Shown here: in pieces, positions 48,957 through 59,182 of the stretch
How positions within the stretch are numbered: the stretch's first letter is position 1
Layout of the letters: the number at the start of each line of letters is the position of its first letter
Assembly (NCBI RefSeq): GCF_001753245.1
Contig: NZ_CP017415.1
Span: 3,342,040-3,406,039 of the forward strand
From: Acidihalobacter yilgarnensis
GTDB lineage: Bacteria; Pseudomonadota; Gammaproteobacteria; DSM-5130; Acidihalobacteraceae
Length of the DNA: 64,000 bases
Direction of reading: 5' to 3'
Program-made: the position numbers and the translations under genes
Notes under the pieces: model-generated
What the model was told of the DNA's origin: nothing
The model's input: the letters and a program-made list of their open reading frames with translations, nothing else
Database searches by the model: none

Positions 48957-50246
48957 TCAGCTCGGGTAGGTCATATGGCAGCCCTTTTCGGCAGCGCTCT
49001 GGGTGATGCTGGCGCCGGGCTCGTATTTGAGAACATTGAACAGGTCGGGGTATTGCCCGCCGGATTTGACCTCACCTGCAAAGATGCCCGCCATCAGCTG
49101 GTGGTCGTCCGCGCGGAACTGCAGCTTGGCCGGTGACAGGCCGACGCTGGCCGGCAAGGTCATACCCGCCATGGCGCGCGACACCTTGACCGAATCCAGC
49201 GACTTGGCCTCGTTGGCCGCCTGCGCGATGGCATGCGTGGCTACATAGCCGAACCAGCTGCGTGCGGTCGGGTACTTGCCGCCGTTGCGCTGCCGGTAAT
49301 GCTCGACGAAGGGTTTGACTTCGGGCACGTTCGGCTGATTCCACCACCACTCGAAGCTCCAGTCACCGACGCGGGCCGCTGCGGGTAGCGCCTGCAGCAC
49401 TTCAAGCTCCATCATGCCGCCCGCCACGCCGAACTTCTTCTGCAGACCAAACTGATTCACCTGGGTCAAGGCATGTACGAGGTCGTCGCCAGCCTGCAGG
49501 ATGATCAGGCAGTCTGGCTTGGCGGCCTGAGCCTGGATCAGGTAGGAGGAAAAGTCGGTGGTGCCGAGGGGTGCCAGTGCCGAGCCCAGCACGGTGCCGC
49601 CGTGCGCCTTGAGGATGCGTTCGAAGGCCGCCTGTTCGGTCAAGCCGAAGGCGTAGTTCGGGGTCAGGAAGTACCAGCGCTTGCCGTACTTGTTCATCAG
49701 GGTCTCGGCGATGCCCGCGGCCAGCATGTAGGTGGTCGTGCACACGCGGAAGGTACTCCAGCTGCAGTGCGTACCGGTCACCGGGGTCGCGTGGCCGCCG
49801 GAATCCACGAACAGCACGCCCATTTCGCGGCTAGCCTGTTCGATTGCCTCGGACACCGCCGAGGACACGGTTCCCTGCATGAAGTGCACGCCGTGCTGTT
49901 TCACGAGCTGATGCGCCTTGGACACGGCCAAGCCAGTCTTCGAGCCAGTATCGGTTACGATCAGCTCAAGCTTGCGGCCCAGCACGCCGCCATGGGCGTT
50001 GACTTCGGCGGCGGCCATCTCGGCGCCGCGGGTCTGGTTGCGACCCAATTCCGCGTAGGTGCCAGTGGATGGGTTGAGTACGCCGATACGCACCGCATCG
50101 CTTGCGGCATAAGCGTTGCGCGAACCCAGCGTGAGCGCCTGCGAGGCGGCGAGTACCGCGCCCGCCTTCAGAAAGTCGCGTCGTGAAAACGCACTCCGCC
50201 CTTCATTGCCTTCCCCCGTCGAACCGGGTGTTTTCTTGTCGGCCAT
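48957..50246 (-). CDS. Tat-exported substrate-binding protein of the liv-type importer
   Basis: A 429-residue periplasmic-binding protein. Unusually it carries a twin-arginine signal (SRRDFLKAGAVLAASQAL, RR at residues 22-23), suggesting folded or cofactor-bound export, followed by the Peripla_BP_6 fold (VRIGVLNPSTGTYAELGRNQTRGAEMAAAEVNAHGGVLG). It heads the operon and determines its substrate; amino acids, amides and short-chain acids are all possible. GAGGAGAGG precedes the ATG. Confidence 0.9.
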   Translation of the reverse strand: MADKKTPGSTGEGNEGRSAFSRRDFLKAGAVLAASQALTLGSRNAYAASDAVRIGVLNPSTGTYAELGRNQTRGAEMAAAEVNAHGGVLGRKLELIVTDTGSKTGLAVSKAHQLVKQHGVHFMQGTVSSAVSEAIEQASREMGVLFVDSGGHATPVTGTHCSWSTFRVCTTTYMLAAGIAETLMNKYGKRWYFLTPNYAFGLTEQAAFERILKAHGGTVLGSALAPLGTTDFSSYLIQAQAAKPDCLIILQAGDDLVHALTQVNQFGLQKKFGVAGGMMELEVLQALPAAARVGDWSFEWWWNQPNVPEVKPFVEHYRQRNGGKYPTARSWFGYVATHAIAQAANEAKSLDSVKVSRAMAGMTLPASVGLSPAKLQFRADDHQLMAGIFAGEVKSGGQYPDLFNVLKYEPGASITQSAAEKGCHMTYPS

Positions 50247-55196: not shown

Positions 55197-56575
55197 TCAG
55201 GCGTTCATCTGCTTGGGTGCAGGCAAGGCAGGCAACATGGCCGGCAAGCTGAGCGTCATGCACAGCCCACCATCGGCACGATTCTCGGCCAGGATGGTTC
55301 CCTTGTGAGTCTCCACCGCATGCTTGGCGATGGCGAGCCCCAGGCCGTAGCCGGCACGCCCCCGGTCGGGGACTGTGCGCCACGCACGAAGGGTTCGAAC
55401 ACCGTGGCGAGCAACGGCTCACTCATGCCCGGCCCACGATCACAAACCCGCACGAGAATATCGCTGCCTGCCAGGGTAACCGATACCTCGACCTGATCAT
55501 TCGGAGGCGAGAAGCGCAGGGCATTGCGCACCACATTCTCCAGCGCCCGACGCAACAATTCCTCACGCCCCATCAGCTGCGCCGTGCCGACGCACTCGAG
55601 CACCACGCTACGTCCGTCGGAAGCCTCGAAATTGGCATCGGAGACCACCTGCCCGATCAGCGCCGCGAGATCTACGCGCTCCTCCGGCCCCATGTCCACC
55701 CCCGCATTCATGCGCGAGAGCGTCAGCAGTTCGCCGACCAGCTCGTCCAGACGGCCACTCTCGCGCTCGATGCGCGTCAACGCCGTTCCCAGTTTGTCTG
55801 GTTGCTGACGTGCCAGCGCGACGGCGACGCCGAGGCGTGCCAGCGGTGAACGCAGCTCATGAGAAACGTCGTGCAGCAAGCGCTGCTGCGCCGTCACCAA
55901 TGCCTGCAAACGTGTCGCCATATGGTCGAAATCCCGCCCAAGATCGGCGATTTCGTCACGCCGGGTGCCCATGCGCGGCAGTACGCGCGTGTCCAGCGAG
56001 CCCGCCGCCAAGGCGCGCGTGGCACGCTGCAGGTGACGCACCGGACGCGTCAGATACCAGGCAAGACCCAGACTGAACAACAGGCTGGCGGCAAGCGCGG
56101 CCCCCAGGCGGACAATCAACTCGTCGCGCACCAGCGCCCTGCGCGCCGCAGCGCTCGGGTGCACCCGCAGCTCGATAGGGATGAACATCAGGTAACGCTT
56201 GCCATCGGGCGCCGCGACCAGTCGCAGACCGGGACCGGCATCACCGGCAGCGAGGGCGGACTGCGCCTTACCCAGCACCGTCGCCGGTACCGAACGCCCG
56301 AAGATATCCACGCCTTTGTCGCTCACGACCAGCACCGGGAAGTGTTGCCAAAAGCTGGAGCTGGTAAACAGTTCACGCAGCGCCGGCACGCCGCCAAAGT
56401 GCAGCACGGTGGCAGCGGAGGTCACCGCAAAGTCCACCTGCGGCCCACCAGCCACATCCGTGATCTCACGCATGCGCGCCTGGTTGTGCAGATATACCGC
56501 CGCGCCCACGGCCGCCCCGATGGCGATCTGCACCACCCAGAAACCAAGGAATATCTTCCAAAATAGTCGCCCCAC
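55197..56575 (-). pseudogene. CpxA-like sensor histidine kinase, single-base frameshift near the C-terminus
   Basis: The intact part has two membrane helices (about 7-29 and 155-175), a periplasmic domain, HAMP, the phospho-accepting H239 in HDVSHELRSPL, the N box ENVVRNALRFS and DRGPGMSE. Translation derails in a run of four G (plus strand, 55368-55371) after FVRGAQSP. In the adjacent frame the expected GRAGYGLGLAIAKHAVETH and a normal C-terminus follow, stopping at 55197. One restored base gives a complete kinase of about 459 residues. Start is GTG, three bases after the regulator stop. Either a real lesion that removes the last ATP-binding box or a homopolymer sequencing error. Confidence 0.85.
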
Positions 56576-56578
56576 GAA

Positions 56579-57262
56579 CTAGGCCGCCACGAGCTGATAA
56601 CCGATACCGCGCACCGTCTGAATCGGCGAACGTCCGTCCGGTAATTGCCCAAGCTTGCGCCGCAGATTGCTCACATGAACATCCACACTACGGTCGTATC
56701 GCGACAACGGATGCCCGAGAACACGCTCGGAAATCTCCTCCTTGCTAACCACTCGCCCGGCCTGACGCGCCAAGGTTTCCAGCAGGTTGAATTCCGTGCT
56801 GGTCAGGGCCATGCGCTCACCTGCCCACTCGGCCACCCGCTCGGCCGAGCGGAGGGTCACTTCGCCCACGCGCAACGTCTCCCGCGAAGCGCCGGGCGTT
56901 GCCCGGCGCAATACCGCACGCAACCGTGCCACCAGTTCACGCGGATTGCATGGCTTGGGCAGGTAGTCGTCGGCGCCCAACTCAAGGCCGACGATACGGT
57001 CGACGTCATCGCCCTTGGCGGTCAACATGAGCACGGGCACCAGCGACTGTTGGCGAATCTGCCGGAGCGACTCCAGGCCACTCTGGCCCGGCAGCATGAT
57101 ATCCAGCACCACGGCATCGGCGTCGCCGGCAAGCGCCTGCTGCACGCCATCCTCTCCGTTATGCGCCGACGTCACATCGAAGCCTTCGGCCTCAAGATAT
57201 TCCGCAAGCATCTCGCACAATTCTTCGTCATCGTCGATCAACAACACACGATTCATCGTCAT
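56579..57262 (-). CDS. cpxR: CpxR-like response regulator (OmpR family)
   Basis: A 227-residue regulator: receiver with D10-D11-D12 and phospho-acceptor D54 (VVLDIMLPG), Thr in MLTAKGD, Lys in DDYLPKPCNPRELVAR, then a winged-helix DNA-binding domain (LTSTEFNLLETLARQAGRVVSKEEISERVLGHPLSRYDRSVDVHVSNLRRKL). The RYDRSVDVHVSNLRRKLG part is very close to CpxR. A perfect CpxR box lies 79 bases upstream. It probably senses envelope stress with the downstream kinase. Confidence 0.9.
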   Translation of the reverse strand: MTMNRVLLIDDDEELCEMLAEYLEAEGFDVTSAHNGEDGVQQALAGDADAVVLDIMLPGQSGLESLRQIRQQSLVPVLMLTAKGDDVDRIVGLELGADDYLPKPCNPRELVARLRAVLRRATPGASRETLRVGEVTLRSAERVAEWAGERMALTSTEFNLLETLARQAGRVVSKEEISERVLGHPLSRYDRSVDVHVSNLRRKLGQLPDGRSPIQTVRGIGYQLVAA

Positions 57263-57340
57263 CCTGGCCCGTCTGTCCTTGGTTTACCTGAAATCATGCT
57301 GCCACAGCCCACGTGCCTCGGCAGCAAAGTATTGCCCCGC

Positions 57341-57355
57341 TTTACATAGCTTTAC
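57341..57355. promoter_or_regulatory. CpxR box (GTAAA-N5-GTAAA) between cpxR and the miniprotein
   Basis: The plus strand reads TTTACATAGCTTTAC; the minus strand therefore reads GTAAA-GCTAT-GTAAA, an exact CpxR consensus. It is 79 bases upstream of the cpxR start and 92 bases upstream of the miniprotein start, so it may serve both divergent transcripts. Confidence 0.8.
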
Positions 57356-57446
57356 CCATTCAGCATGCACCTTTGCGGGGCTCACGCGGATACTGCATCC
57401 ATCGCAGGACAATGACGTTCAGCAGACACGGAAGGAGCGGTGGATC

Positions 57447-57554
57447 ATGACGCATCAAGACGCAATCTGCTTCGGATGCCAAGGCTTTACCGCTCCCTGC
57501 CAACGTCATACCAATCCACGACGACCGCATCCGACGCCTGCGGCCATCGCTTGA
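57447..57554 (+). CDS. 35-residue Cys-containing miniprotein, possibly Cpx-regulated
   Basis: A small open frame, MTHQDAICFGCQGFTAPCQR and 15 further residues, rich in Pro, His and Arg. It has a C8-F-G-C11 pair, a third Cys at 18 and several His, suggesting metal or disulfide chemistry. A strong AAGGAG site lies nine bases before the ATG, a perfect CpxR box lies upstream and a strong terminator 58 bases downstream, so it behaves like a free-standing gene. I know no family for it. In E. coli the divergent partner of cpxRA is cpxP; this protein is unrelated in sequence. Confidence 0.6.
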   Translation: MTHQDAICFGCQGFTAPCQRHTNPRRPHPTPAAIA

Positions 57555-57612
57555 TACATCCGCGCCAGCTCACGCGACACCTCAGGCGAGACCCCTAGCT
57601 CTCCTCCTGACT

Positions 57613-57638
57613 CGGCCCCTACAGTGGGGCCGTTTTTT
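57613..57638 (+). terminator. Rho-independent terminator after the miniprotein
   Basis: CGGCCCC pairs with GGGGCCG around a six-base loop and is followed by six T. The region between it and the binding-protein gene at 57908 holds nothing else recognisable. Confidence 0.85.
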
Positions 57639-57907: not shown

Positions 57908-59182
57908 ATGACTCATCGCCTCAAAAATCTCATCGTGCCAAGCCTGATGGTCTTACCACTGACCACGCTCATGGCGCATGCCGCCTGCACCATTCCCATC
58001 GGTATCGTGTTGCCGACCTCCGGCGAACTGAGCGCTCAGGGGCAAGAAAACGTACAAATGGCACAGCTCGCCATTCAACAGATCGACAAGGCCGGCGGGC
58101 CGGGCGTCTGCCGCCTCAAGGCCGTGATCAGCAACAGCCAGACCAAGCCAGCCATCGGCGTCGATGCTGCGAAAAAACTGGTCGACCTCGACCATGTACC
58201 GGCCATCGTCGGCGCATCGTCCAGCGGCGTCTCGATGGCGATATTGACTTCGGTGACCGCGCCAAGCCACGTCGTACAGATTTCGCCGTCGTCCACCTCG
58301 CCGGCGTTCACCACGCTCGCCCAGCAAGGCAAGACCGGCGGCTATTGGTTCCGCACGGCACCTTCCGATGCCCTGCAAGGCGTGGCCATGGCCTCTGTCG
58401 CCCACCAGCAAGCCAAGCTCAAGCGCGTCGCCGTGATGTACCTCAACAATCCTTATGGCAGCGGCCTGGCGGGTCGCTTCGAGCATGAATTCAAGGCCAT
58501 GGGCGGCACGGTCACCGCCAGCATCGCCTTCAATCCGCGGCAGCCGTCCTACCGCAGCGAGGTACATCAGGCCATGCAAGGGCATCCCCAGGCGCTGTTC
58601 CTGGTCGGCTACCCGAACACCGGCGAGGTGATCGTACGCGAATGGATCAGCGCCGGCGGTCCGCATACCTACCTGTTCCCCGACGCCCTGCACGCGCCGC
58701 AATTCGTCAGTGCCATCGGCGGCCGTTATCTCGACGGGCATACCTGGGGCACCGTGCCGGGCAATACCCGCACGCGCAGCCTCGGCTATGTTGCGAAGGC
58801 CTTCAAGCGTGCCTACGGGCATCCCATGAGCGAGTCCTACGATGCCTCGACCTACGACGCGACGGCCATCGCGGCACTCGCGGCCTATGCCGCCAAGGCA
58901 GGCGGCGCCGTCACCGGCGCGCGCGTGCGTGACATGATCCCGCGCGTCACCGACCCGAAGGGCGCCCCGATCTACGCCTCGGTGCGCGGTTTCCGCAAGG
59001 CGGAAAAATTGCTCGCCGCCGGCAAGCCGATCCGTTACATCGGCGCCTCAGGCGCGCTGCACTTCAACGCCACCGGCGACGTCAAGGGACCGATGGTCGT
59101 CTGGCGCGTCAAACAGGGCCATATCGACCCGATCGGAACCCTCAGTGCAAAACAAATCGCCAACATCGGCGCGCACGGCTGA
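57908..59182 (+). CDS. Orphan branched-chain-type ABC substrate-binding protein
   Basis: A 424-residue periplasmic protein with a Sec signal (cleavage after AHA, residue about 20) and the Peripla_BP_6 fold (CTIPIGIVLPTSGELSAQGQENVQMAQLAIQQID, then AAKKLVDLDHVPAIVGASSSGVSMA). No permease or ATPase genes are next to it, so it may share the LivHMGF complex encoded 8 kb upstream or act as a sensor. It has two Cys (after signal cleavage and at KAGGPGVCRL). GGGAGAAG precedes the ATG. Confidence 0.88.
   Translation: MTHRLKNLIVPSLMVLPLTTLMAHAACTIPIGIVLPTSGELSAQGQENVQMAQLAIQQIDKAGGPGVCRLKAVISNSQTKPAIGVDAAKKLVDLDHVPAIVGASSSGVSMAILTSVTAPSHVVQISPSSTSPAFTTLAQQGKTGGYWFRTAPSDALQGVAMASVAHQQAKLKRVAVMYLNNPYGSGLAGRFEHEFKAMGGTVTASIAFNPRQPSYRSEVHQAMQGHPQALFLVGYPNTGEVIVREWISAGGPHTYLFPDALHAPQFVSAIGGRYLDGHTWGTVPGNTRTRSLGYVAKAFKRAYGHPMSESYDASTYDATAIAALAAYAAKAGGAVTGARVRDMIPRVTDPKGAPIYASVRGFRKAEKLLAAGKPIRYIGASGALHFNATGDVKGPMVVWRVKQGHIDPIGTLSAKQIANIGAHG

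Follow-up and report, generated by a model that had tools for sequence, protein, structure and literature searches.

A candidate CpxQ-like small RNA gene at the cpxP site beside cpxRA in Acidihalobacter yilgarnensis

The window, a 64,000-nt stretch of the Acidihalobacter yilgarnensis genome analysed as a whole, carries cpxA-like and cpxR-like genes on its minus strand, with a CpxR box 79 nt upstream of the latter gene (Table 1). The first-pass annotation had proposed that this box, a ribosome site, a 35-codon frame and a strong terminator make up an independent short gene encoding a previously undescribed Cys miniprotein. All of these parts are indeed present at 57341-57638. The exact box is the sole match in the 64 kb and did not occur in any of 100 dinucleotide shuffles. 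It reads TTTAC-N5-TTTAC toward the plus-strand gene, in the same orientation as at Escherichia coli cpxP. The terminator stem (57613-57632) has 7 pairs, all of them GC, and T6 comes after it; the AAGGAG site and the frame with its three Cys, including C8-x-x-C11, were confirmed in the sequence.

Table 1. Features of the cpxRA locus and a candidate target gene in the window.
Feature	Position	Strand	Remarks
cpxA-like sensor kinase	55256..56575	-	best NCBIfam models CpxA, under their cut-offs
cpxR-like response regulator	56579..57262	-	divergent from the RNA gene; best NCBIfam model CpxR, under its curated cut-off
CpxR box GTAAA-N5-GTAAA (TTTACATAGCTTTAC on the plus strand)	57341..57355	-	identical in both congeners
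Third half-site-like TTTGC	57372..57376	+	16 nt past the box, compared with 15 nt at E. coli cpxP
Putative -10 element GATACT	57389..57394	+	33 nt past the box
Predicted small RNA transcript	57400..57638	+	from promoter and terminator
AAGGAG ribosome site	57432..57437	+	9 nt before ATG 57447; in the window genome only
35-codon frame, product MTHQDAICFGCQGFTAPCQRHTNPRRPHPTPAAIA, C8, C11, C18	57447..57554	+	within the RNA's middle segment, which is not conserved
Conserved 3' module (GCGCCAGCTCA..GGCGAGACCCCTAGCTCTCCTCCTG..)	57562..57612	+	single copy per genome
CUCUCCUCCU stretch, candidate seed	57599..57608	+	complementary to Shine-Dalgarno sequences; putative function
Intrinsic terminator, U6 tail	57613..57638	+	ends the ~80-nt 3' module
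ABC-type substrate-binding protein, weak candidate target	48957..50246	-	ribosome site AGGAGGAGAGGTCATG

The box, the half-site-like TTTGC and the putative -10 element appear in the geometry of the cpxP promoter and diverge from cpxR. At E. coli cpxP, the -10-like hexamer TAAACT lies 31 nt past the box, as opposed to 33 nt in the window, and 19 of the 49 boxes of cpxR loci have a -10-like hexamer starting at a distance of 33 or 34 nt. The predicted transcription start lies near 57400. At other cpxR loci, cpxP-like genes are found behind the same box. Since the box fronts cpxP-like genes elsewhere and the geometry matches that in E. coli, the unit stands at the usual place of cpxP. The idea of a short independent unit under a CpxR box adjoining cpxRA is supported at the sequence level, and its position is that of cpxP.

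The surroundings of the box showed further features. A block between cpxR and the box, TGCTGCCACA (57297-57306), is conserved, also at L002-L006, and has a counterpart, TGCCACA, in more distant cpxR loci; it is possibly part of the cpxR promoter. At L011, a tiny Gly/Met-rich frame (MGGGMRGGMGGGG...) lies behind the CpxR box where cpxP would be. A different gene lies behind the box at L041, L045, L047, L051, L058 and L060, which are mainly betaproteobacterial cpxR loci, and three of these six have in common a 215-aa protein (MLSGINQASQMASMLFSKLDTKSQGYLEKSDLAAAF...) that looked EF-hand-like by eye.

We compared five genomes of the order: the window genome (G000), both congeners (G001 and G002), whose CpxR is 93% identical to that of G000, and two genomes of the sister genus (G003 and G004), whose cpxR genes share 74% DNA identity. 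Both congeners keep the identical box, the block GCGGATACTGCATCCATCGC, the -10 region and the 3' module with its terminator, and the predicted RNA is ~238 nt long in G000 and ~140-148 nt in the congeners. In alignments within the window genus, the identity was 87-91% for the whole 3' module, 86-89% for the block from the box to the predicted start and 83-88% for cpxR DNA, compared with 58-68% past the terminator and 0.67-0.74 (as a fraction) for the interval from cpxR to the box. The 3' module is conserved at least as well as cpxR DNA.

Two other readings of the locus were weighed. The box might serve only the autoregulation of cpxRA on the minus strand, with the plus-strand hairpin being the leftover terminator of a decayed cpxP, as the 79-nt distance from box to cpxR and the absence of cpxP would allow. 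However, conservation of the module extends beyond the terminator stem while the flanks have drifted, and the -10 region in the plus direction has been retained as well, which makes this reading very unlikely. The RNA could also be an attenuating leader of the ABC substrate-binding protein gene at 57908, and box, terminator and next gene are collinear in G000 and G001. In G002, however, the next gene is different, and the sequence farther on in G003 is unrelated; box and module nevertheless persist, and Rfam gave no leader match. We consider a leader extremely improbable. Because the downstream gene differs between relatives, the terminator is associated with the box rather than with the gene that follows.

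The 35-codon frame is absent from both congeners, although their box, promoter, 3' module and terminator are retained. A frame not conserved in close relatives, with the terminator kept, is what the first-pass annotation had named as favouring a small RNA over its miniprotein, and it was found in both congeners. The middle segment holding the frame is 156 nt long in G000 versus 53-58 nt in the congeners, and an identity value for this segment between G000 and the other genomes has no meaning, as two thirds of its alignment consists of gaps. An ATG is present at about the same place in G001, but it opens a frame with neither a Cys nor a stop before the terminator. A tblastn search of the peptide in 20 relatives returned itself alone (8.4e-22), the next best matches (0.016) being at unrelated places. 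The peptide had no match in NCBIfam, and no LTxxQ motif, signal peptide or similarity to CpxP was found in the 35-aa frame. Its G+C contents at the three codon positions, 63/63/51% in a small sample of 35 codons, do not look like those of a gene; the values are 71/43/74 for cpxR and 63/50/80 for the next gene. The openness of the frame is no evidence for coding, since this reading frame already runs without a stop from 57015 through antisense cpxR. A Shine-Dalgarno 5-mer with an ATG and at least 35 codons occurred in 0.6% of shuffles of the 218-nt region (3.4% with a 4-mer), and the 64-kb window holds 17 frames of 25-60 aa with a Shine-Dalgarno sequence and ATG.

A real 35-residue Cys miniprotein under CpxR, metal or redox related, on an RNA without function of its own would accord with the good ribosome site and ATG and with how uncommon such a combination is among the region shuffles. 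It is nevertheless highly improbable, given a frame unconserved in two congeners though the rest of the unit persists, no family match in NCBIfam, a codon-position G+C unlike that of genes and no hydrophobic signal segment of the CpxP kind. Most likely, the frame is a by-product of the species-specific middle segment. The proposed parallel to CpxP without sequence relation is borne out as to the site of the unit, whereas the miniprotein itself is unsupported. The segment identities, the missing frame in the congeners and the codon-position G+C suggest that selection apparently acts on the promoter and the 3' end of the RNA.

We searched for the 3' module in other genomes using a covariance model, R1, built from the cpxR loci of the order. 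All five genomes of the order have the module beside cpxR, which is a description, and the strong R1 matches at these loci arise by construction because the model was built from them. Over 56 and 369 genomes, the weaker matches elsewhere adjoined neither a box nor cpxR; they look like chance terminators and were rejected as homologues of the module. No module was found beside a box or cpxR in the 369 genomes of the class outside the order, nor in more distant named relatives (CpxR identity of 65% or less). Rfam gave no match at the locus.

No cpxP coding sequence was found at the locus in G000 to G003, so that all three genomes of the window genus lack it there. The LTXXQ and Metal_resist families (PF07813, PF13801) had no match in G000 and G001, and one weak cpxP-like tblastn match in G000 lies elsewhere, beside another response regulator. 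Behind the box in G004, a genome of the sister genus, come a gene resembling cpxP (169 aa, with two motifs of the LTxxQ type) and a 3' UTR ending in ATCTCCCTCCTGAGAGCATTGGGCCCCGCACGGGGCC-T8, whereas G003 has no cpxP there, but a short stretch and ATCTCCCTCCTGAGAGCATTGGGCCCCGCAAGGGGC-T8. Over the last ~45 nt, the two sequences agree at all but one or two positions, compared with 74% identity for their cpxR DNA. The preceding hairpin is also conserved, with a change from U-A to C-G (GGUGGCG/CGCCACC versus GGCGGUG/CGCCGCC).

The modules of the two genera were compared by searching models from one genus on the other. R3 matched L003 with an E of 2.6e-4 and R2 matched L004 with an E of 0.006; the remaining members gave E values of 0.3-0.5, level with chance matches. 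Position, promoter and the motif TCTCC(C)TCCTG before the terminator agree between the genera, and common descent of their modules is likely. As many cpxR loci have cpxP beside them and G003 and G004 belong to one genus, the simplest count is two losses, and the cpxP coding sequence was apparently lost twice in the order.

CpxQ is a standard case of a small RNA cleaved off the tail of an mRNA. In E. coli and Salmonella, it arises from the cpxP 3' UTR (PMC4817254, PMC9438474), and its Hfq-dependent pairing is established (PMC9438474). The unit in the window resembles CpxQ in being divergent from cpxR, with a CpxR box in the same orientation and at nearly the same spacing, in its terminator with U-tail and C-rich 3' part, and in a 3' end better conserved than the rest of the unit. 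In relatives and in E. coli, it is CpxP that occupies this promoter site next to cpxR. In contrast to CpxQ, the candidate seed is another one and there is no cpxP coding sequence in the window, which would make the RNA a primary transcript instead of an mRNA fragment. Location in the cpxP 3' UTR with release by RNase E, a feature of CpxQ, is absent in G000-G003 and holds in position only in G004. CpxQ is the best match of R1 in the E. coli locus, a weak one of 11.8 bits (E 0.013 in 4.5 kb). We call the RNA CpxQ-like, and not CpxQ, because it would not originate by processing of a cpxP mRNA and its sequence match to CpxQ is not significant. A limited search of the open literature found no cpxP-less CpxQ.

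The box, promoter geometry, terminator, conservation pattern, absence of cpxP and related module behind a relative's cpxP, all features of the DNA itself, point to a CpxR-activated, probably Hfq-dependent CpxQ-like small RNA gene at the cpxP site, left by the loss of cpxP, and we regard this reading as likely. Phosphorylated CpxR would bind TTTAC-N5-TTTAC and start transcription near 57400, and the RNA would end at the terminator, at 57638. Its functional part would be the conserved ~80-nt 3' module with the U-tail, a region probably bound by Hfq and engaged in pairing with mRNAs; Hfq is encoded in the genome, and together with the U-tail of the terminator this makes Hfq-dependent pairing the natural expectation. 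Pairing would perhaps occur via CUCUCCUCCU at ribosome sites and lower translation under envelope stress. The origin is most likely a CpxQ-like RNA of the cpxP 3' UTR, left standing after the coding sequence was lost. The sister genus shows the same site in both states, as a cpxP tail in G004 and as a stand-alone unit in G003, with a nearly identical RNA end. If this is true, what is selected can be the RNA, and RNAs from mRNA tails can become independent genes once the coding sequence is lost. A testable RNA thereby takes the place of a proposed new protein family.

The RNA might also have a dual function, as does SgrS, which is named as such a small RNA in a review (PMC9438474). By analogy with SgrS/SgrT, the 3' module would do the work of a small RNA, with the species-specific insert translated as well, so that a stress RNA from the cpxP 3' UTR, having twice outlived its protein in one order, would have gained a translated Cys peptide here. 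As in SgrS, a short frame lies upstream of the putative pairing part, and one predicted transcript combines the conserved 3' module with a plausible translation start. Unlike in SgrS-type RNAs, however, the frame is unconserved even in congeners, being confined to one genome, and a dual function seems unlikely.

For the preferred CpxQ-like RNA, two candidate seeds were considered, the CU-rich stretch CUCUCCUCCU and the apical loop ACCCCUAG directly before it. The CU-rich stretch may not be the seed because it is partly paired in the window genus (mean unpaired 0.25-0.38); it is open in the sister genus (unpaired 0.60 and 0.85). The gene at 50246 has a 10-nt perfect match to CUCUCCUCCU spanning its ribosome site, and the match is similar in both congeners. 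Searching ribosome sites with AGGAGGAGA-ATG gave 5, 3 and 4 places in the three genomes of the window genus, among which only this substrate-binding protein recurs; as ribosome sites are conserved anyway, the recurrence is a lead only. By duplex energy in the window, the gene ranked third of 58 with the seed and fell outside the top eight with the longer module. The targets proposed for the RNA are guesses from sequence complementarity.

Two further features were also recorded. Another ABC substrate-binding protein gene (57908-59182) adjoins the RNA gene; it is also present in G001, but not at the corresponding place in G002. Outside the window, at G000:C1:3138653-3139403 and recorded under L151, L152 and L153, lies a tandem array of ~100-nt small-RNA-like units. 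Rfam gave no match for L151 and L152. The units are spaced ~150 nt apart, every one having a terminator of its own and a hairpin loop, CUUGUCUCCCCCCCUUCAAG, and number five in G000, six in G001, four in G002 and one or two in the sister genus.
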